Positions 868 to 13,751 of a stretch of DNA of 30,365 nt are shown piece after piece. The stretch lies in IMG/VR virus record IMGVR_UViG_3300017917_001379, positions 1-30,365 of that record; one strand, written 5' to 3'. The notes beneath the pieces were generated by a model. That model made no database searches. It was not told where the DNA came from and worked only from the letters and a program-made list of their open reading frames with translations. This DNA comes from a virus. Each line of letters begins with the position of its first letter. Within the stretch, counting starts at the first letter, position 1. The position numbers and the translations under genes were made by a program.

Positions 868-1376
868 TCTTTTATATCAAAACTTTCTTTTACAAAATCT
901 GGAAATATTCTTATTTTAAAATTTTCTTTATGATCACGAACATGTTTAATAAATATTTTTTCTCCATATGGATGAACTCCATTTTCATTAACATATAAAA
1001 AATTTATTTTATTTTTTTTAAAATAATTTTTAGCCCAATCTATCATTTCTTTTGAAGGTAAGCTAGGAGCTTGTATAAACTCTACATATTTAATATCATG
1101 TATAGCGTTAAATTTCATAATAACTCCACAATTTTCAGGTTTCCATTTATCTGGAATATTTTTTATATCTAACCAAACGCAATTAAAAGTTTTACAAGGA
1201 TAATTTGGTCTTGTATCATATCTTGTACATCCATTATTTTGTTTTAAAAAAATACAAGGATTTCCTGGATATATTCTAGTACTATCTACAGTAAAAGTTA
1301 ACCACCCCTCACAACATTTAGTACATGTTCCACATGTTTTATTTTTACCAAATTTTATTGTTGAAATTAAATTCAT
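864..1376 (-). CDS. CxxCxxCC (YkgJ-like) metal-binding protein
   Basis: The 170-residue protein carries Cys15, Cys18, Cys21 and Cys22 (C-G-T-C-T-K-C-C), then Cys41, Cys50, Cys61 and Cys66 in a C-x-F-L ... C-x-x-Y-x-x-R-P ... C-x-x-F-x-C pattern. This is the layout of the putative zinc- or iron-chelating YkgJ family (PF03692), whose biochemical role is unsettled. The C-terminal 90 residues are alpha/beta and unrecognised. The start ATG overlaps the stop of the upstream gene as TAATG, so it is the fourth, translationally coupled gene of the minus-strand operon. It may share a role with the six-cysteine ribbon protein at the operon head. Family assignment is fairly sure from the motif; function is unknown. 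Confidence 0.8.
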   Translation of the reverse strand: MNLISTIKFGKNKTCGTCTKCCEGWLTFTVDSTRIYPGNPCIFLKQNNGCTRYDTRPNYPCKTFNCVWLDIKNIPDKWKPENCGVIMKFNAIHDIKYVEFIQAPSLPSKEMIDWAKNYFKKNKINFLYVNENGVHPYGEKIFIKHVRDHKENFKIRIFPDFVKESFDIKD

Positions 1377-2164
1377 TATATTTTTCCTTCAATCCATTTT
1401 TCTTTCTTTGTTTTGCTATCTCTATCTTTTTGCATTTTTCTATAAACACCACTCTCTAATCCAACAGATTCATACTCTATTATTGCTTCCATTAGTTTAT
1501 CATACATTTTACTTGTATTAGATTTTATATTTAAATTATACTTAGTTCTTTTAAATGGCATAATGGTTATAAACGGATCTCCAGATTTTACTTTAAAAGA
1601 TTTGTTGTCTGAGTGAAACAATGACGGTATATTTATTTCATGATGGATATCTGTATCAATAATTCCTGGCATTGGAGTAAAGTTTTGATTAAATGAATAT
1701 ATTGGTGGAATAACTAAAATCGAATATCCTTTTGGAGTAACTATAGACCATGGAGTTACTATTTTAATAGTATTTTCTACTTTTTTATTTCCTACATAAA
1801 AGTCTGTATATTCTAATAATTGTTGTTTTGAATGTTCTCCCCAATATAAATTATTCTTATATATACATTCATATTTATCTTCTAAATTATTAAATATGAT
1901 TTTACCATTGTCATTATATATATCTGATGTTATCCACATAGGCATTATATATAGGTTTGAAAAAAAATCTACTATTGCTGGACAAATTCTAGCAGTAGGA
2001 ATTAAATCAAAAAGAATATCTTTATTTTTTTGTTCTACTTTTGTTGGAATATTATTCCACCAATCTGGTAATAAATTTCTATATGGTTTAGGACAAAAAT
2101 CTAAATCTTTATCTAAATTATTTACTATGCTTGTAAAATAAATATTTTTATTTTTTTTAAAAAT
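1376..2164 (-). CDS. TPKGYS-family phage protein, paralogue 1
   Basis: The product (262 aa from the ATG at 2164) is a paralogue of the genes at 2157-2909 and 8934-9638. Shared landmarks are L-P-D-W-W near residue 33, R-I-C-P-A-I-V-D-F-F near 60, T-P-K-G-Y-S at 143-148, G-I-I-D-T-D at 167-172 and G-D-P-F ... P-F-K-R at 195-206. The pattern suggests a beta-rich single domain. It is reminiscent of the unknown-function family DUF6065, but this is from memory and uncertain. A longer reading from 2212 is open, but the start at 2164 aligns best with the paralogue and reduces the overlap with the upstream gene to 8 bases. No catalytic residues can be named. Confidence 0.75.
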   Translation of the reverse strand: MFKKNKNIYFTSIVNNLDKDLDFCPKPYRNLLPDWWNNIPTKVEQKNKDILFDLIPTARICPAIVDFFSNLYIMPMWITSDIYNDNGKIIFNNLEDKYECIYKNNLYWGEHSKQQLLEYTDFYVGNKKVENTIKIVTPWSIVTPKGYSILVIPPIYSFNQNFTPMPGIIDTDIHHEINIPSLFHSDNKSFKVKSGDPFITIMPFKRTKYNLNIKSNTSKMYDKLMEAIIEYESVGLESGVYRKMQKDRDSKTKKEKWIEGKI

Positions 2165-2909
2165 CATTTCTTTTTTCTTTCTGAATTTTCCTATATGCAT
2201 TTCTAAATCCATAACCTAAACCTAAATGAAGATCTTGTTTTTGTTCCCAATCATTCATTACTTTACTAAAATAATTATCATGTTCTATATTTTTCTTTAT
2301 TATTTTATAGTTTGTTTTTGTTCTTTTAAAAGGTATATACATTAAAAGAGGTGTACCACTTAATATACTAAATTGTTTATCATTACAATGTAATAAACTA
2401 GGATGATTCATTTGATGCATAATATCAGTATCAACTATTCCAGGCAGTATAGTAAAATTTTCATAAAATTCATAAAATACTGGCAAAACTAAAGTTGACC
2501 ATCCTTTAGGAGTAATTACATGCCAAGGACTATCAAACTTTATTATTCCATCTATATCTCTATCTCCAATTCTAAATTTATGATGTTCTAAAAATTGATT
2601 TTTATCATGTCCAGAAAGTTTTTGAAATCTATCATTATTATCTATATAGAAGTCTATTCCTGTTTTTTCTTTATTTAATCCATGAATTAATATGTTTGTC
2701 CACATAGGAACAATATATCCTTGATTAAAAAAATCTGGTACTGCTGGACATCTTCTTATTGTTGGCCAATTATTAGATTGATTTGGTATTTTAGTCCACC
2801 ATGAAGGAATATATTTTTTTGCAGAGTATGGAACTATATCTTTATTTTTTTCTAAATCATCTATAGAAGCATAAAACTTAATATTATTGTCTGATCTATT
2901 AAAAAACAT
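2157..2909 (-). CDS. TPKGYS-family phage protein, paralogue 2
   Basis: This 250-residue protein shares the order of motifs of its neighbour: I-P-S-W-W near 36, R-R-C-P-A-V-P-D-F-F near 53, T-P-K-G-W-S at 133-138, G-I-V-D-T-D at 157-162, and S-G-T-P ... I-P-F-K-R. The ATG at 2909 overlaps the upstream stop as TAATG, the junction used repeatedly in this phage; a GTG two codons earlier (2915) is a poorer choice. It is the second gene of the minus-strand operon, directly after the ribbon protein. Function unknown. Two tandem diverged copies suggest paired or heteromeric roles, or different substrates. Confidence 0.75.
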   Translation of the reverse strand: MFFNRSDNNIKFYASIDDLEKNKDIVPYSAKKYIPSWWTKIPNQSNNWPTIRRCPAVPDFFNQGYIVPMWTNILIHGLNKEKTGIDFYIDNNDRFQKLSGHDKNQFLEHHKFRIGDRDIDGIIKFDSPWHVITPKGWSTLVLPVFYEFYENFTILPGIVDTDIMHQMNHPSLLHCNDKQFSILSGTPLLMYIPFKRTKTNYKIIKKNIEHDNYFSKVMNDWEQKQDLHLGLGYGFRNAYRKIQKEKRNDF

Positions 2910-3109
2910 TACCACTTACCAATAGGGCATTTTGCATTTTCTAATGTTGTTTTTAATTTCATAAAACACCCACACTTTCTACATGTCTTTGTTTTTTGTC
3001 TAAACCATTCACAACCACTACAGATTTCAAGGCGGTATATAGAAAGTTCCTCTGAACTTCTAGGTGAATTAGGATTTATTAAATCCCATGGTTTCACATC
3101 ATCTGACAT
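2909..3109 (-). CDS. six-cysteine zinc-ribbon-like small protein
   Basis: The 66-residue protein begins with a K-P-W-D-L-I-N-P motif, then cysteines at 30, 33, 43, 46, 48 and 61 and an ending C-P-I-G-K-W. The paralogue at 11407-11643 has exactly the same cysteine spacing (3, 10, 3, 2, 13). This is expected to bind one or two metals, probably zinc. It heads the minus-strand operon and has a promoter with TATAAT seven bases upstream of the ATG, so it should be translated from a leaderless mRNA. Small proteins like this recur in aquatic phages, but I know of no assigned function. Confidence 0.8.
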   Translation of the reverse strand: MSDDVKPWDLINPNSPRSSEELSIYRLEICSGCEWFRQKTKTCRKCGCFMKLKTTLENAKCPIGKW

Positions 3110-6781: not shown

Positions 6782-7648
6782 ATGTCAGAACAAATCGGAG
6801 CCCTTTACCCAACTCAAATTCCAGCTTATTCTGAAACGGCAGATATACAGGCTGCTTTTAGATTATATCACTATGGTTCTAGTGCATATGATACAGAAAA
6901 TGAAGATCCAGCAGAATTGGTTGAAGGATCTATTGCTTATACATTAAATGATTTTCAAAATCAAATTGATACAATTGATCCAGCTGGTAAAATTTCAGAA
7001 ACTATTATTGATGCCAAAGGTGATTTAATTGTTGGAGCTTCAAGCGATACCCCTTCTAAACTTTCTGTTGGTAGCAACAATTTTGTTTTAACTGCCGACA
7101 ATGCTCAAACCCTAGGAGTCAAGTGGGCTGCTCCAGATGTTTCTCAATCAAACGCAGTCACATTAACTAATAAAACTTTAACAAGTCCAATAGTTGATGG
7201 ATCTGGAATTATATTTGAAGGTGCAACTGCAGATGCATATGAAACAACTTTAACAGTTACAGATCCAACTGCAGATAGAACTATTACTTTACCAAACGCA
7301 ACTGGTACAGTTGATTTACAAGAGTTATCTTTTAATACTCAGTCTGGAACAACATATACTTTTGTTTTAGCAGATCAAAGCAAAATGATTACAGCATCTA
7401 ATGCTTCTGCACAAACTTATTCAATTCCTACAAATGCATCTGTTGCTTTTCCAGTGGGAACACAAATACATATAATTCAAATAGGGGCTGGACAAGTCAC
7501 TATTTCTGCAACTACCCCAGCCACAACAACGGTACTTTCATCATCATCCATTAATGCAAATAATCCAAAAACTAGGGTACAATATTCTTCAGCGACCTGT
7601 ATAAAGGCTGCTACGGACACATGGTACGTGATAGGTGATATAGTATGA
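6782..7648 (+). CDS. tail fibre with lectin-like C-terminal knob
   Basis: The 288-residue protein has an N-terminal region (1-90) with I-D-A-K-G-D-L-I-V-G, then one L-T-N-K-T-L-T-S-P repeat (about 126-134). [12 protein letters not shown] element is also present in two copies in the 18277 fibre. The C-terminal 110 residues match the C-terminus of that fibre (S-V-A-F-P-x-G-T-Q-I-H-I and A-T-D-T-W). The C-terminal domain is probably a trimeric knob that touches the receptor. It overlaps the next gene as ATGA, so both are made together. Confidence 0.75.
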   Translation: MSEQIGALYPTQIPAYSETADIQAAFRLYHYGSSAYDTENEDPAELVEGSIAYTLNDFQNQIDTIDPAGKISETIIDAKGDLIVGASSDTPSKLSVGSNNFVLTADNAQTLGVKWAAPDVSQSNAVTLTNKTLTSPIVDGSGIIFEGATADAYETTLTVTDPTADRTITLPNATGTVDLQELSFNTQSGTTYTFVLADQSKMITASNASAQTYSIPTNASVAFPVGTQIHIIQIGAGQVTISATTPATTTVLSSSSINANNPKTRVQYSSATCIKAATDTWYVIGDIV

Positions 7649-8490
7649 GAATATTAGGTATAGTTGCTTCTTCAGTATTTAAGACGTTTATTGATAATTT
7701 TAATAGAAGCACTTCAGGAAGTTTAGGAACTCCGTCTGGTGGTGGAGTCTGGATTGCTACAAGCGGAACATGGTCAGCAGATGGATCTAAAGCAACATCT
7801 GCCACTGCTGCATCATCTTATCCAATTGCATCTGCAGAACTTTATACTAATGCACCAACAATTGATCTAGATACAGATGGTGCTGGTGCTGGTGTAGCAT
7901 TTTGGGTTCAAGATTCTTCAAACTGGTATGGTGTAGTTCCTTGGAGAGCAACGGATACTGTTTATAGTCAACAAGCTAACTACGGTTCACAGTGTAATGC
8001 ATATTCACAAACGTGCAATGCGTATACTCAAGTGGGTCCTATTTGTACTGGAGCATATTCTATATTTACAAATAATAGATATGGAAAATATACTCTTTAT
8101 TGTAGAGAATTTGCCTATCAATCATCATGTAGCGCTTATGGATCATTATGTAATGCATATTCACAAACAACATCTTATTCTCAAATAACTTCATATGCTC
8201 AAGGTCAAAGATATTTAAGATTATTAAGAAATGTAGGCGGAACTGTAAGCACAGTAACTGATCAAGCAGTAAATGCTGCTGTAGCATCAATAAAAGTTAT
8301 TGTCAATTCTGCGGGAGCAATTACTGCTAGAGCCTATTCAAGTGCAGGTCAAACAAATCAAACTGGAAGTGATTTAACAAATACTCCAGTATCGCCTACA
8401 AGAGCAACAAAACATGGAATTATATTAGCCCCATCTGGCTCTGATACTCAACAAACCAAAGTTGATAACCTAAGCATGAAAGGAACATGA
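7645..8490 (+). CDS. beta-sandwich fibre protein with Cys-heptad insert
   Basis: This 281-residue protein has a lectin or LamG-like beta-sandwich (G-V-A-F-W-V-Q-D-S-S-N-W-Y-G-V-V) that is interrupted at about residues 107-185 by an insert with six cysteines (117, 124, 134, 153, 162, 169). The core continues with R-Y-L-R-L-L-R. Within the insert, Cys-Asn/Ser-Ala-Tyr heptads repeat in two pairs. The start ATG overlaps the upstream stop (ATGA). It is likely the last part of the fibre unit begun at 6782. The insert could form a disulfide- or metal-stabilised loop exposed to the receptor. Function by context only. Confidence 0.65.
   Translation: MRILGIVASSVFKTFIDNFNRSTSGSLGTPSGGGVWIATSGTWSADGSKATSATAASSYPIASAELYTNAPTIDLDTDGAGAGVAFWVQDSSNWYGVVPWRATDTVYSQQANYGSQCNAYSQTCNAYTQVGPICTGAYSIFTNNRYGKYTLYCREFAYQSSCSAYGSLCNAYSQTTSYSQITSYAQGQRYLRLLRNVGGTVSTVTDQAVNAAVASIKVIVNSAGAITARAYSSAGQTNQTGSDLTNTPVSPTRATKHGIILAPSGSDTQQTKVDNLSMKGT
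7993..8168. repeat. 20-base direct repeat encoding CNAYSQT
   Basis: TGTAATGCATATTCACAAAC occurs at 7993-8012 and again, identical, at 8149-8168. Each encodes the Cys-Asn-Ala-Tyr-Ser-Gln-Thr heptad, which points to recent duplication within the insert. Confidence 0.8.
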
Positions 8491-8532: not shown

Positions 8533-8898
8533 ATGCCACAAGCACCAAGAAACTATAAAGAATTACAAGTACCACCAAGTATTTTTACTTTACCCAAACA
8601 TATTGCTTTAATTATAGATGGAATTGTAGAAAATATACTTCATCTTAATGAAGATGAATATAATTTATTTATGTCAAATCCAAATATTGTTTTGTTAGAA
8701 CCAGAAACGTCAGACGGTATGTATACTATTCAAATTAGTAATGATTCTAAAACACAAAAATTTTATTTTACAGAACGAGATGCATCAATTATTTTATCAT
8801 CACCAACTTTTAAAGAAGTTAATATTAAATCAAGCGGTGGTCCAGATATTGGATATTTATATGATTTGGCAACAGATACCTTTACTGAAAATCAATAA
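8533..8898 (+). CDS. hypothetical protein (121 aa), probable virion-associated
   Basis: The product has no recognised domain. Residues 1-25 are Pro-rich and basic (M-P-Q-A-P-R-N-Y-K-E-L), the middle is alpha/beta with a hydrophobic I-A-L-I-I-D-G-I-V, and the end carries G-P-D-I-G-Y-L-Y-D-L-A-T. A good Shine-Dalgarno lies upstream. It is the last gene before the accessory cassette and follows the fibre unit. A structural or chaperone role for fibres is possible but is only a guess from position. Confidence 0.55.
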   Translation: MPQAPRNYKELQVPPSIFTLPKHIALIIDGIVENILHLNEDEYNLFMSNPNIVLLEPETSDGMYTIQISNDSKTQKFYFTERDASIILSSPTFKEVNIKSSGGPDIGYLYDLATDTFTENQ

Positions 8899-8917: not shown

Positions 8918-8933
8918 ATAGGGGTGATAAAAA

Positions 8934-9638
8934 ATTAAGTATACTTATTTTATTTCAGATCCACGATCTGCAAATTATATATTACCAGTTTCAGCAAAAG
9001 AATTAATTCCAGAATGGTACAAAAAGTCAGAAAAGTTTTGGATTGATATAGATACTGAAAGACCTGGAATAAAATCTTGTATTCCAATATTAGATGCATT
9101 AATATCTGGATATTTTTTATTAACCCAAGTTGACATTTATATAGAAAAAGATAATAATGGGTCAATATCTATAAATTATGGAAATGATAATTTAAATGAT
9201 TATGATTTTATTTCAGAAAGACCAGATGATTTAGGAAAAAATATGCCAAGACCAGCTGGACATTTAAGAAATCATTTAGTTTGGACTTCAAATTGGGCTT
9301 GGAAAACTCCAAAAGGGTACAGTATGTTAGTTACACACCCACTAAATGGTTGGCACTTACCTTTTACAACCATGTCTGCAATAATTGATAGTGATAAATT
9401 TAATGGTCCAGGAAATATACCATTTTTTTTAAAAAAAGATTTTGAAGGTATAATTCCAAAAGGAACTCCATATGCTCAACTTATTCCAATAAAAAGAAAA
9501 AAATGGACTATGGTATATAGTAAAAAATTAACAGATTCTATGATGTATAATGGTGTAGAAAATACAAGTGGTTTATATAAAGAACGAACTTGGGAAAAAA
9601 AAATATATTTAACAAAGGATGAAAATGAAAGAGAATGA
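8934..9638 (+). CDS. TPKGYS-family phage protein, paralogue 3 (ATT start)
   Basis: No ATG, GTG or TTG is available between the in-frame stop at 8928-8930 and the internal ATG at 9243, yet the protein clearly continues upstream. Residues P-V-S-A-K-E-L-I-P-E-W-Y match P-Y-S-A-K-K-Y-I-P-S-W-W of the 2157 paralogue. ATT at 8934, five bases after GGGGTGAT (a near-perfect anti-SD match), is the best start and gives 234 residues. T-P-K-G-Y-S is at 125-130, A-I-I-D-S-D at 149-154 and P-K-G-T-P ... I-P-I-K-R at 175-188. First gene of the sugar/sulfotransferase cassette. Function unknown. Confidence 0.72.
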   Translation: MKYTYFISDPRSANYILPVSAKELIPEWYKKSEKFWIDIDTERPGIKSCIPILDALISGYFLLTQVDIYIEKDNNGSISINYGNDNLNDYDFISERPDDLGKNMPRPAGHLRNHLVWTSNWAWKTPKGYSMLVTHPLNGWHLPFTTMSAIIDSDKFNGPGNIPFFLKKDFEGIIPKGTPYAQLIPIKRKKWTMVYSKKLTDSMMYNGVENTSGLYKERTWEKKIYLTKDENERE

Positions 9639-10377
9639 AAAAGTTGCTATAGGATGGATAGATGGAGGATCAATAACTAGTGGATTTGCATCATACATAT
9701 CACAATTATTATTACATAGAAATAATATAATAAGCGATGTTGTTGTTGGTACAGGTCCATATCTATCATCAAATAGAAATAAAATGGTAGAACTTTTTTT
9801 AAACGGCACAAAAGCAGAGTGGCTATTGTCATTAGATAGCGACCTTCTTATTGATTTAGATTCATTTGATAAATTAGTTGAATCTGCAGATTCTGAAAAA
9901 CATGGAATAATTGCAGGAAAATATTTTTTACCAATAGGAAATCAAGTAGTTTTAGCAGCTCAAAAATTTAATAATGAAACTAAAGATATAGGGATTTGGA
10001 TTGATGGAGATGATCCAGATTTAAAAAAGAAGATAATAAATGGCCTTCATTCTGTAGGTGCTGGATATATGCTAGTTCATAGATCTGTTTTTGAAACAAT
10101 ATCAATGAATATAGGTACATCATGGCCATGGTTTCAAGATTATTGGGTTGAATATCCTTATAATTCTTGGATTACAGATGATATTCATTTTTGTAATTTA
10201 GCAAGACAATATGGTTTTAATATTGCACTATGTACAAATGCAACATCAACTCATTTAAAAACAGCATATATTAATGAATCTACTTTTATTAGTGCTCAAA
10301 ATTATACAAAATGGTTACATGATAAAAATTTTAAACCAGAGTCTAAAAAAAGTTGGATGGTAAGAGGTAAAAGATAG
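9619..10377 (+). CDS. GT-A-fold glycosyltransferase (family 2-like)
   Basis: The 252-residue protein looks like a GT-A glycosyltransferase. A hydrophobic strand and W-L-L-S-L-D-S-D-L-L place the DxD-type Asp73-Ser74-Asp75, which binds the nucleotide-sugar metal. G-A-G-Y-M-L-V-H-R-S-V-F at 148-159 is the acceptor-site segment typical of these phage enzymes, and W-I-T-D-D-I-H-F-C (184-192) carries likely catalytic acids. It overlaps the upstream gene by 20 bases; ATG 9619 and ATG 9625 are both possible, the latter having AAAGGA in front. It would transfer a sugar, perhaps made by the dehydratase downstream, to a virion or cell-surface acceptor. Acceptor unknown. Confidence 0.82.
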   Translation: MKMKENEKVAIGWIDGGSITSGFASYISQLLLHRNNIISDVVVGTGPYLSSNRNKMVELFLNGTKAEWLLSLDSDLLIDLDSFDKLVESADSEKHGIIAGKYFLPIGNQVVLAAQKFNNETKDIGIWIDGDDPDLKKKIINGLHSVGAGYMLVHRSVFETISMNIGTSWPWFQDYWVEYPYNSWITDDIHFCNLARQYGFNIALCTNATSTHLKTAYINESTFISAQNYTKWLHDKNFKPESKKSWMVRGKR

Positions 10378-10378
10378 T

Positions 10379-11407
10379 ATGAAAGTTTTATTAACTGGTG
10401 CTGGTGGATTTGTTGGGCATCATACTTTATCACATTTATTAAAAACAACAAATTGGGATTTTGTTGTAACTGATTCATTTAAACACCAAGGTATATCTTC
10501 TAGACTTAGAGCTGTTTTTGAAGAATTACCAAATGAAATCAAAAGAGTAAAAGTGGTAACACATGATCTTGTATCTCCAATTGATTCCGTTACATCGCAT
10601 GAGTTTGGAAAAATAGATACAATTATAAATATGGCATCAGATTCTCATGTTGATAGATCAATTCAAAATCCTAGACCATTTGTTGAAAATAATATAGCAT
10701 TAATGTTAACAATGGTAGACTATGCACGAACATTAGATAGTTTAAAATGTTTTATTCAAGTATCCACTGACGAGGTATATGGTCCAGCCCCATATGGTAC
10801 TTTTCATAAAGAATGGGAACCACTTATACCATCTAATCCATATTCTGCAAGTAAAATGGGACAAGAGGCAATAGCAAATGCATATTGGAGATCATATGGT
10901 TTACCTATGGTAATAACAAATACAATGAATATAATTGGAGAAAGACAAGATTCTGAAAAATTTGTCCCTAAAACTGTAAAAAGTCTTTTATTTGGAAAAC
11001 CAATTACTGTTCATTCTAGTTTTATAGATAATAAATGGGTATCTGGAAGTAGATTTTATTTACATGCAAGAAATCAAGCAGATGCACTTCGGCATTTAAT
11101 TGAATATTTTTATAATAAACCACATAGATATTTAGATGGATTATCTAAACCAGAAAGATTTAATGTTAAAGGTGAAATAGAAATATCTAATGATGAAATG
11201 GCTTTTATGATTGCTGATATTTTAGGTATAGAAAAAGAAAAAGCTGTTGAATATGTTAATGTAGAAAACAGTAGACCTGGACATGATTTAAGATATGCTC
11301 TTGATGGATCTAAATTAGAAAGTATTGGATGGAAACCTCCAGTACCCTTTAGAGAATCTTTAGAAAGAACTGTTATGTGGACAAAAAATAATCAAGAGTG
11401 GCTATAA
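10379..11407 (+). CDS. RmlB-like NAD-dependent sugar-nucleotide dehydratase
   Basis: An extended short-chain dehydrogenase of 342 residues. The NAD-binding glycine motif G-A-G-G-F-V-G is at 7-13, S-D-S-H-V-D-R-S-I at 87-95, S-T-D-E-V-Y-G at 129-135, and the catalytic Tyr155-x-x-x-Lys159 in Y-S-A-S-K. These are the signature elements of dTDP-glucose 4,6-dehydratase (RmlB), which makes 4-keto-6-deoxy sugars, though UDP-sugar relatives share them. Length is typical. It starts one base after the glycosyltransferase stop, and its stop overlaps the ribbon gene (TAATG). Substrate is inferred from the family, not proved. Confidence 0.88.
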   Translation: MKVLLTGAGGFVGHHTLSHLLKTTNWDFVVTDSFKHQGISSRLRAVFEELPNEIKRVKVVTHDLVSPIDSVTSHEFGKIDTIINMASDSHVDRSIQNPRPFVENNIALMLTMVDYARTLDSLKCFIQVSTDEVYGPAPYGTFHKEWEPLIPSNPYSASKMGQEAIANAYWRSYGLPMVITNTMNIIGERQDSEKFVPKTVKSLLFGKPITVHSSFIDNKWVSGSRFYLHARNQADALRHLIEYFYNKPHRYLDGLSKPERFNVKGEIEISNDEMAFMIADILGIEKEKAVEYVNVENSRPGHDLRYALDGSKLESIGWKPPVPFRESLERTVMWTKNNQEWL

Positions 11408-11643
11408 TGTCTGAAGATAGACAAGTAAGACCATGGGATTTTTTTAAAGAAGATACAATGTATGCTTCTGATAAAATTGCAGAAGAAAGAATGTCTATTT
11501 GTAATAATTGTGAATTTTTTTTTAAATTTACAAAACAGTGTAAAGTATGTATGTGTGTAATGCCATGGAAAGCAACGCTTGCAGATGCAACTTGTCCTAA
11601 AGGAAAATGGGGCAAAACCACAGATTATAAAAAAGAAATATGA
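11407..11643 (+). CDS. six-cysteine zinc-ribbon-like small protein, copy 2
   Basis: From ATG 11407 (TAATG overlap) the product is 78 residues; an upstream GTG at 11398 is less likely. Cysteines at 32, 35, 45, 48, 50 and 63 have exactly the spacing of the minus-strand paralogue, and V-R-P-W-D-F and C-P-K-G-K-W frame the motif as there. It should bind metal. It sits between the dehydratase and the sulfotransferases, while the other copy sits before two TPKGYS genes, so the ribbon and TPKGYS families travel together. Function unknown. Confidence 0.78.
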   Translation: MSEDRQVRPWDFFKEDTMYASDKIAEERMSICNNCEFFFKFTKQCKVCMCVMPWKATLADATCPKGKWGKTTDYKKEI

Positions 11644-12431
11644 TTAGTTCAAGAAGTCAATATTATGATTTTGATAACATAGATTTTTATCATTTGCATA
11701 TAATGAAAACTGGTGGAATACATTTACATAATTTTTTATTTAATAATGTAACAAATATATTAGTAAAAAATAATGTAAAAGTTTTTAATCAAAGAGTTCG
11801 TGGACATTTTGCTTGGGAACCTGCAAACAACAACACATATATAATTTCTACTTTTAGGGACCCAGTAAAAAGATCAGTTAGTCATTTTATGTATTTAATT
11901 AATCAAGTATATGTAATAGAAAACAATAAAAAAAAACCTACAATTTTTGATAGATCAGTAAATGATCATGGTTTATTTCATATTAAAAATTTTGAAAATC
12001 CAACAATAGATGATTTTTTTATTTGGTTTTATCAAAAAAAAGACATTTTATCAAATTTTCAAATAAAAAATTTATATAACGATAATCATTATATTTTAGA
12101 TGCATCTAATTTACATTTAACAAATTTTAATATATCTAGTTTTAATTTAAATACAGCAATGCAAAATTTATCAAAAATTAATATATTAATAAAAACTGAA
12201 AATCTTACAAATGAAATTTTATCTAAAAGCGCAATAAAAATTTTTAATAATTTTAATATAAATTATAATATTGATTTTAAATTTCCAGATAAAAAAATTA
12301 ATTATCATCAACCATCTTATGATTTTTTTACTAAATTATCAAAAGATAACATTAAAGAAATAGAGTTATTAAATTCAGATGATATGAATATATATAATAC
12401 TAATTCATATTTTACATCTTTTGAAAGTTAA
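11640..12431 (+). CDS. PAPS-type sulfotransferase, copy 1
   Basis: The 263-residue protein carries a 5'-phosphosulfate loop-like H-I-M-K-T-G-G-I-H-L (residues 20-29) and a 3'-phosphate-binding S-T-F-R-D-P-V-K-R-S-V-S-H-F (70-83) with Arg73, Asp74 and Ser81. This is the pattern of Golgi-type and bacterial sulfotransferases (Sulfotransfer_2/3 families), which transfer sulfate from PAPS to sugars. The loop lacks the usual Thr-Ser after K-T-G-G, having Ile-His, so activity may be altered. It is extremely AT-rich with many Asn, Lys and Ile codons, and overlaps the ribbon gene (ATGA). The 12435 copy is its tandem paralogue. Confidence 0.78.
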   Translation: MISSRSQYYDFDNIDFYHLHIMKTGGIHLHNFLFNNVTNILVKNNVKVFNQRVRGHFAWEPANNNTYIISTFRDPVKRSVSHFMYLINQVYVIENNKKKPTIFDRSVNDHGLFHIKNFENPTIDDFFIWFYQKKDILSNFQIKNLYNDNHYILDASNLHLTNFNISSFNLNTAMQNLSKINILIKTENLTNEILSKSAIKIFNNFNINYNIDFKFPDKKINYHQPSYDFFTKLSKDNIKEIELLNSDDMNIYNTNSYFTSFES

Positions 12432-12434
12432 AAT

Positions 12435-13175
12435 ATGCAAAAAAAAATTTTTTATCATTTACATATACCAAAAACTGGCGGAACATCATTAAATTTATTT
12501 CTTAATAAAACAATATATCCTATTTTAAAATCTAATAATATAGAAATATACACACAAAATAATAATATTGATATTATACCAATAAGTCACAATGGTTGGA
12601 AACCTATAAATAATAATATATATATAATTTCATCAATGAGAGACCCTGTAAAAAGATGCATAAGTCAATATGTTTTTCTTGATAATTTTAAAAAAAATAA
12701 TAATTTTGATATAGCAAATACAGATATAAATAAAAAAACTTTTTTAGAATGGTTTTATAAAAATGAAAATATTTTATCTAACTATCAATTAAAAAATTTA
12801 TTTTACTGTCAAGATGGCTCGTTTTATCCAGAAGAACTAGATGGAAATTCACCTGAAATAAATATTAATGTTTTGCCAATAGAAATAATAAAAAAAAATC
12901 TATCAAAAATTAATATATTAATAAAAACTGAAAATATAACAGAATTAAATTTAAAATTAATGTATTATAAAATATTAAAAGATTTTAATATTGATATTAA
13001 AGAAAAGTATGAATATAAAGAAAATATTAAACAATATGTAAATAATAAATCATTAGATATATATAACTCTTTAACAAAATCTGAAATTAATTTTATAGAA
13101 GTTATAAATAGTATAGAATTAGAAATATATAATACAGAAAGTTATTTTACTAAATTTGAAGATACCCCCCAATAA
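12435..13175 (+). CDS. PAPS-type sulfotransferase, copy 2
   Basis: This 246-residue paralogue has an intact 5'-phosphosulfate loop H-I-P-K-T-G-G-T-S-L (10-19, Lys13, Thr14, Gly15, Gly16, Thr17, Ser18) and a 3' motif M-R-D-P-V-K-R-C-I-S-Q-Y (68-79, Arg69, Ser77). It shares with copy 1 I-L-S-N-x-Q-x-K-N-L, L-S-K-I-N-I-L-I-K-T-E-N and a Y-N-T-x-S-Y-F-T-x-F-E ending. It is likely a carbohydrate O-sulfotransferase acting with the neighbouring glycosyltransferase and dehydratase. The stop lies inside the terminator hairpin. PAPS would have to come from the host, since no APS kinase is seen in the window. Confidence 0.84.
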   Translation: MQKKIFYHLHIPKTGGTSLNLFLNKTIYPILKSNNIEIYTQNNNIDIIPISHNGWKPINNNIYIISSMRDPVKRCISQYVFLDNFKKNNNFDIANTDINKKTFLEWFYKNENILSNYQLKNLFYCQDGSFYPEELDGNSPEININVLPIEIIKKNLSKINILIKTENITELNLKLMYYKILKDFNIDIKEKYEYKENIKQYVNNKSLDIYNSLTKSEINFIEVINSIELEIYNTESYFTKFEDTPQ

Positions 13176-13190: not shown

Positions 13191-13751
13191 TTAGTGAGGG
13201 AATTTAGCCATCCACTCCAACGTTTTTGAAGTAACGCCTTTCCAGGCACTCCAATTCTCCCCACCGTTTGACATTTTATATGCTATTTGTGCATTAACAA
13301 CTGGATTAAATAGGTCTACATTGTGTTCTAAATTATATTTATCACGACGATCAGAACCCATCATTCCAAGCATATTTATTTGAAAAATACCATAAGAACT
13401 GTCTCCAGTTTTAGTATTTCCATTAAATGCAAAAGGTCTTCCATTGCTTTCTTTTTTAGCAATAGCCCACGCCTCCTTTAGATTTTGACCTTCAAAACCT
13501 ACTAAAGATAATAGATTTTTTAGATCTTTGTCAGATAGAGTTATAGCATTTGCATATTTTTCTAACTGATCTTCTTTAGCCTTAGAAACGATTTTGGCCA
13601 CTTGCGTGGCCTCTATTGATTCTTCTAGCACGATAGATTTACTATCTAATCGGTTTTCAGAAGCATTAGCCACATTTGACCAAACGCCAAACATAGCTAA
13701 AATGCTGAGTGTGCCAATGACTTGTTTATTATTTCTCATAAAGTCAATCAT
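13191..13751 (-). CDS. exported lysozyme/transglycosylase-like muralytic enzyme
   Basis: The 186-residue product has a membrane or signal segment (about 11-28) ending in A-N-A, with a likely cleavage after Ala30. A Lys/Glu-rich linker follows (about 31-75), and then a soluble transglycosylase-type domain (about 88-180). In it, E101 of A-K-K-E-S-N-G-R is the expected catalytic acid, S-Y-G-I-F-Q-I-N (119-126) is the conserved strand, and N-V-D-L-F-N-P-V-V-N-A and N-W-S-A-W follow. It cleaves peptidoglycan glycan strands. It is the only minus-strand gene in this half, with a strong promoter, a 5' hairpin and an AAGGAGG ribosome site. It may be the lysin, or an exported virion or host-surface enzyme. 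Confidence 0.85.
   Translation of the reverse strand: MIDFMRNNKQVIGTLSILAMFGVWSNVANASENRLDSKSIVLEESIEATQVAKIVSKAKEDQLEKYANAITLSDKDLKNLLSLVGFEGQNLKEAWAIAKKESNGRPFAFNGNTKTGDSSYGIFQINMLGMMGSDRRDKYNLEHNVDLFNPVVNAQIAYKMSNGGENWSAWKGVTSKTLEWMAKFPH

Follow-up and report, generated by a model that had tools for sequence, protein, structure and literature searches.

Why does a phage carry a glycosyltransferase (GT), a sugar dehydratase (SDR) and two sulfotransferases (ST1 and ST2) in a single run behind a fibre-like gene, and which molecule would these enzymes modify? The window analysed here is a 30,365-bp IMG/VR virus record (GC 32%), in which a portal and a head-maturation protease are clearly recognised. 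This virus of aquatic bacteria probably has an actinobacterial host: the protease is nearest to those of Streptomyces phages (58% over half of the protein), and two relatives sharing the cassette (L003 and L117) encode WhiB, a transcription factor characteristic of actinobacteria and the phages that infect them.

Layout of the run and its sugar genes

All four enzyme genes of the original prediction were recovered in place, and their DSD, YxxxK, KTGG and RDPxxR motifs were confirmed in the translations of one tight unit. That prediction had left out the DUF6171 gene, the upstream DUF6065 gene and the tandem paralogy of ST1 and ST2. The features of the locus are as follows:

7645..8490, + strand: fibre-like protein, 281 aa, the proposed substrate; homologs lie immediately upstream of all cassettes examined
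8533..8898, + strand: small conserved ORF, 121 aa, between fibre and cassette; homologs at the matching place in several relatives
8934..9638, + strand: DUF6065/phrog_7084 (1e-19), dUTPase-like fold, predicted by modelling the paralog at 2157-2915
9619..10377, + strand: GT-A glycosyltransferase with DSD motif; phrog_34859, 4e-17; conserved start probably 9625
10379..11407, + strand: RmlB-like NDP-sugar 4,6-dehydratase (SDR); TIGR01181 4e-61, below the equivalog cut-off; PDB 1e-50
11408..11643, + strand: DUF6171/phrog_13558, small, Cys-rich, probably metal-binding; matching neighbourhood in relatives
11640..12431, + strand: ST1, sulfotransferase paralog (KTGGI, GHFAW, RDPVKRSVS)
12435..13175, + strand: ST2, sulfotransferase paralog (PKTGGTS, SHNGW, RDPVKRCIS)
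13191..13751, - strand: SLT/lysozyme-like gene, convergent, bounding the sulfotransferase slot; PF18896 9e-16; boundary kept in L119 and L124

The same-strand run thus reads DUF6065, GT, SDR, DUF6171, ST1 and ST2 up to the convergent lysozyme-like gene. SDR begins 1 base after GT, ST1 overlaps the DUF6171 gene by 4 bases and ST2 follows ST1 after 3 bases. The DUF6065 gene occupies an open frame at 8931-9638 with no ATG, GTG or TTG near its conserved N-terminus, and its start is probably the ATT at 8934, behind GGGGTGAT; the DUF6171 gene lies in an ORF at 11398-11643 with a likely ATG at 11408.

Sequence evidence supports the predicted classes of both sugar genes, and in each case the family profile matched solved structures. 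For the putative GT-A glycosyltransferase, the motif LLSLDSDLL holds an aspartate pair (D73 and D75) that is invariant in 5/5 GT members, and the profile matched A197 of STIV, a solved viral GT-A (E=1.4e-6). Against the Pfam GT2 models the GT scored just under the cut-off, and a search for GT relatives in bacterial genomes found none. The SDR carries TGAGGFVG (Rossmann GxxGFxG), STDEVYG (with the catalytic T-D-E), YSASK (YxxxK) and RPGHDxRYAL, its family profile matched solved dTDP-glucose 4,6-dehydratases at E=9.8e-51, and it is 51% identical to a protein of Arthrobacter phage Racecar. With RmlB and the phage 'nucleotide-sugar epimerases' (phrog_540), it shares full-length homology and the last three of these motifs. 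Unlike RmlB, however, it stays far under the 365.1-bit NCBIfam equivalog cut-off of TIGR01181 (206.9 bits), and for this reason we call it RmlB-like only and assign neither nucleotide nor sugar specificity from its sequence. Beyond this dehydratase, the window has no recognised step of a deoxysugar pathway.

The sulfotransferase pair

Taken singly, ST1 and ST2 both fall under Pfam cut-offs. ST2 reached PF00685 at E=0.002 (17.9 bits, below the 22-bit gathering score) and phrog_3347 at 5e-5, ST1 had no relevant Pfam or PHROG match, and single-protein searches of phage records, viral contigs and the PDB gave nothing usable; tblastn of the pair against 50,697 phage records produced no match. Only the two-paralog alignment of ST1 and ST2 opened the family, finding four relatives in IMG/VR, from which a profile search iterated over the fetched loci led to 22 sequences (18 in the alignment, with duplicates left out). 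The profile of these 18 phage relatives matched HS6ST3 across positions 8-239 of 241 (E=1.4e-6); its matches to the remaining listed sulfotransferases were weaker (E 0.07-0.34).

The original prediction had made a P-loop-like PAPS fold its structural check, and the AlphaFold2 model of ST2 (pLDDT 80.5, pTM 0.81) has a sulfotransferase fold. Foldseek against the PDB ranked HS6ST at the top (prob 1.00; TM (TMq) 0.52-0.56) with HS2ST also among the best hits (prob 0.97), and the first 48 PDB matches were all sulfotransferases or sulfotransferase-fold enzymes, with a best E of 8e-3 and none at E<=0.001.

Across the 18 members (ST2 numbering), Arg69, Pro71 and Ser77 are invariant and Gly16, His52 and Gln118 nearly so. 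These residues match the pattern reviewed for PAPS sulfotransferases, which comprises a PSB loop with Lys and Gly, a PB Ser and a His base (PMC11625862): the loop corresponds to KTGG, present in ST1 and ST2 and kept in most members, the 3'-phosphate-site Arg and the helix Ser to R69 and S77 (18/18 members), and the candidate catalytic base of ST2 to His52, which sits in an H-x-x-W motif. With the HS 6-O- and 2-O-sulfotransferases (Sulfotransfer_2 superfamily, PF03567), the window proteins share KTGG, RDPxxR...S, the candidate-base His, N-x-Q and the fold, but they are only about 14% identical to them, shorter, apparently cytoplasmic and below the Pfam cut-off. L119, a close relative, has a sulfotransferase at the matching place that passes PF03567 (29.0 vs 22 bits). 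Fold and motifs together support the earlier call of two PAPS-type sulfotransferases, which would presumably be active as such.

ST1 and ST2 stand in tandem and are paralogs of each other (38% identity, E=5e-44). A tree pairs them with modest support (82/88), so that duplication within the window lineage is likely and no firmer than that. Could one or both be inactive relics or binding proteins? ST1 (IMKTGGIH, FRDPVKRS) has lost the Pro and the Thr/Ser that flank KTGG in ST2 (IPKTGGTS, MRDPVKRC), its branch is longer (1.5 vs 0.83), and the L090 homolog lacks both the KTGG loop and the His. Against this, ST1 and ST2 are intact ORFs that retain the Lys, Gly, Arg, Ser and H-x-x-W His, and we consider loss of function very improbable.

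Recurrence of the cassette and an optional sulfotransferase slot

To follow the gene set in relatives, which the original prediction had named as a further check, we made three scans without the sulfotransferases, seeded with an SDR relative, the GT alignment and the fibre alignment. The GT scan returned five contigs, and 5/5 carry fibre, DUF6065, GT, SDR and ST in this order. The fibre scan returned nine contigs with GT (one ending inside it) and 11 without, several of the latter being near-duplicates or truncated; it added L119 (with ST), two contigs lacking ST (L121 and L124) and L120, which stops within GT. Overall, the order fibre-DUF6065-GT-dehydratase is kept in eight other contigs, few in number and all from IMG/VR, even though identity to the window's proteins spans only about 30-76%. 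Every GT found lies behind this fibre type, and fibre relatives also exist without GT.

Sulfotransferases were found in the records of 6/8 relatives by a whole-record profile search (none in L121 and L124), and in 7/9 cassettes that continue past SDR, the window included; these counts are small, and two copies occur in the window only. L119 and L124 are close relatives, with SDRs 88% and lysozyme-like genes 96% identical. Between DUF6171 and the lysozyme-like gene, L124 has about 50 bases, L119 one ST and the window two. Since zero, one or two copies occupy the same place, the slot is fixed and the sulfotransferase module in it optional. Family members also occur in phage loci with no GT or SDR nearby (L004, L006, L020, L025 and others). 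Because both sugar-less ST loci and ST-less sugar cassettes exist, sulfation and glycosylation are separable: the enzyme classes behind the earlier 'sugar-sulfation' label hold, whereas its link between sulfate and sugar is hypothetical, given these loci and the two cassettes that lack ST.

The sulfotransferases might then be independent of the sugar genes, acting on tyrosines, another protein, a metabolite or a nucleotide and merely filling a hypervariable slot before the lysozyme-like gene. The variable copy number and the sugar-less loci are in keeping with this, as is the composition of the window's fibre insert, of which 16% is Tyr (13 of 82). The best structural relatives, however, are carbohydrate sulfotransferases (HS6ST, HS2ST) and not tyrosylprotein sulfotransferases, and an ST is present in every cassette contig from the GT scan; we judge independence unlikely.

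A phage-encoded PAPS supplier was considered and set aside. In four cassettes (L003, L005, L088 and L117), the ST is directly followed by a fusion of an APS-kinase-like N-terminus and a nucleotidyltransferase C-terminus. We did not use this gene as evidence for PAPS supply because its N-terminus matches TIGR00455 (2e-16) over only about half of the APS-kinase domain, because it is widespread (phrog_10255 'kinase', at least 597 viral sites) and mostly without ST in the fetched DNA (ST in about 11/80 sites fetched), and because neither the window record nor L090, L119, L121 or L124 contains it.

The fibre as candidate substrate

The product of 7645-8490 probably has a virion role, given its position among structural genes. 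Beside its conserved flanking domain it has an 82-aa insert rich in Tyr, Ser, Thr and Cys, which is longer in most relatives and is a natural candidate acceptor. Triplets of one aromatic and two small residues reach 6.2-12.6 per 100 in 10 fibres with GT, compared with 0-2.7 per 100 in 5/6 fibres without GT (6.4 in the sixth), an enrichment that is suggestive of a substrate and was rejected as proof of one, as the measure was picked post hoc and the GT-less fibres are more distant kin.

We give about even credence to the reading that the cassette makes a modified sugar and attaches it to the phage fibre in the host cytoplasm, with the sulfotransferases adding sulfate from PAPS. The RmlB-like dehydratase would convert an NDP-glucose, probably host dTDP-glucose, to a 4-keto-6-deoxy sugar, and the soluble GT-A would transfer this sugar, or a derivative finished by the host, to the adjacent fibre, most plausibly within the Tyr/Ser/Thr-rich insert. 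ST1 and ST2 would then add sulfate to the sugar or to the protein, His52 being the candidate base. A negatively charged, variable fibre surface that alters adsorption or recognition would be the likely outcome. For this scheme we infer the activity of the cassette, the donor sugar, the substrate, the order of steps and the benefit.

The original prediction had left the target between fibre and host surface. On the host-surface alternative, the deoxysugar would be built onto a polymer of the host envelope or onto a lipid carrier and then sulfated in place, masking receptors or excluding superinfecting phages. RmlB supplies wall-polymer pathways in actinobacteria, and the sulfotransferases, which diverge fast and are strongly AT-biased (GC 18%, compared with 28-31% in their cassette neighbours), resemble host-interaction genes. 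A host-surface role is also among those discussed for GTs of phages, cultivated Nanopelagicales phages among them (PMC10202952). However, no membrane GT, flippase or carrier-lipid enzyme was recognised in the cassette, and the set lies among late structural genes, right behind the fibre in all relatives. In GT, SDR and the sulfotransferases the hydropathy maximum over 19 residues is 0.6-1.2, which indicates no strong hydrophobic segment and fits a cytoplasmic substrate. We regard host-surface modification as unlikely and infer that the virion is the favoured target, because the GT is fixed behind the fibre, membrane segments are lacking, and mycobacteriophages and STIV offer precedents. Shared descent without a functional tie could also explain the fixed order.

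In mycobacteriophages Che8, Corndog and Myrna, phage-encoded GTs glycosylate the capsid and tail tube of the virion (PMC12363180, citing Freeman 2023). The probable actinobacterial host and own GT of the cassette place it alongside these phages, but its putative target is a fibre, and that paper mentions no sulfotransferase. STIV A197 and the cassette GT are both small and without an additional domain, with a profile match that covers the DxD region plus one further stretch; A197 belongs to an archaeal virus. We know of no sugar-modifying genes adjacent to A197. This GT is essential to the virus, and its presumed substrate is the coat protein of STIV itself (PMC10551542).

The original prediction had also called sulfotransferases next to glycan genes unusual in a phage. 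This is too strong for the sulfotransferase itself, since phage sulfotransferases have been reported from OM43 phages and Synechococcus phage S-SRM01, with their function left open (PMC10580990), and from glacier viruses (PMC8290583), and they form a named PHROG (phrog_3347, 'Galactose-3-O-sulfotransferase'). Those of OM43 phages and S-SRM01 are phage-borne like ST1 and ST2 but belong to Sulfotransfer_3, and the consulted passages of these papers describe no conserved GT/SDR/fibre context such as that of the cassette. Phage sulfotransferases, RmlB-like genes and virion glycosylation are thus each already known; the literature searches, which covered few subscription papers, did not turn up their fibre-linked combination.

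A bolder version of the fibre reading, tentative and rather doubtful, is that aquatic actinobacterial phages place a self-made sulfated deoxysugar on their own fibre, at its hypervariable aromatic/Ser/Thr/Cys repeat insert, and that the number of sulfotransferases in the fixed slot acts as a tunable surface-charge module. A sulfotransferase slot behind a fibre gene with GT and dehydratase offers a concrete candidate substrate, and natural versions exist with no copy or one copy in relatives and two copies in the window. If the proposal is true, these phages sulfate their own surface, changing its charge and receptor recognition.

The DUF6065 family, which opens the run, has three copies in the window. 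Modelling of the copy at 2157-2915 predicts a dUTPase-like fold for the family (Foldseek 4e-5), with a weak match in sequence over GIVDTD...GTPIAQII.

DUF6065 paralogs and the cassette start codon

Three DUF6065/phrog_7084 paralogs are encoded in the window:

1376-2212, minus strand, DUF6065/phrog_7084 paralog
2157-2915, minus strand, DUF6065/phrog_7084 paralog, the copy modelled with AF2
8934-9638, plus strand, DUF6065/phrog_7084 paralog, cassette copy

The predicted structure of the 2157-2915 copy (pLDDT 80.7) matched trimeric dUTPases in Foldseek (best 4e-5), and its GIVDTD...IPxGTPxAQxIP pattern resembles dUTPase motifs. Haloviruses, for example HF2, also carry relatives. In the region 8931-8960, the apparent start codon of the cassette copy is ATT (8934), which is preceded by GGGGTGAT and aligns with ATG in relatives.

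Sulfotransferases and the APS-kinase-like fusion

GC content is 18% in the two sulfotransferase genes (11640-13175) versus 28-31% in other cassette enzymes. In four cassettes, sulfotransferases adjoin a phrog_10255 fusion of an APS-kinase-like P-loop domain and a short nucleotidyltransferase domain, which is very common among viral contigs (at least 597). Loci on related IMG/VR contigs were as follows:

L003:8629-9381, phrog_10255 fusion
L005:8714-9469, phrog_10255 fusion
L117:10456-11205, phrog_10255 fusion
L090:7699-8364, sulfotransferase homolog, degenerate PAPS loop

The L090 homolog, with a KNGN loop and Asn in place of His, is probably inactive.

Fibre-like and iron-sulfur genes

7645-8490, fibre-like protein family, also in L003, L005, L088, L090, L117, L119-L121 and L124
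538-867, iron-sulfur cluster assembly protein (PF01521)

Fibre-like proteins of this family share a conserved frame and carry a highly variable insert, 80 to about 240 aa long, that is built from short aromatic/Ser/Thr/Cys repeats. The iron-sulfur cluster assembly gene is an auxiliary gene already known from phages.
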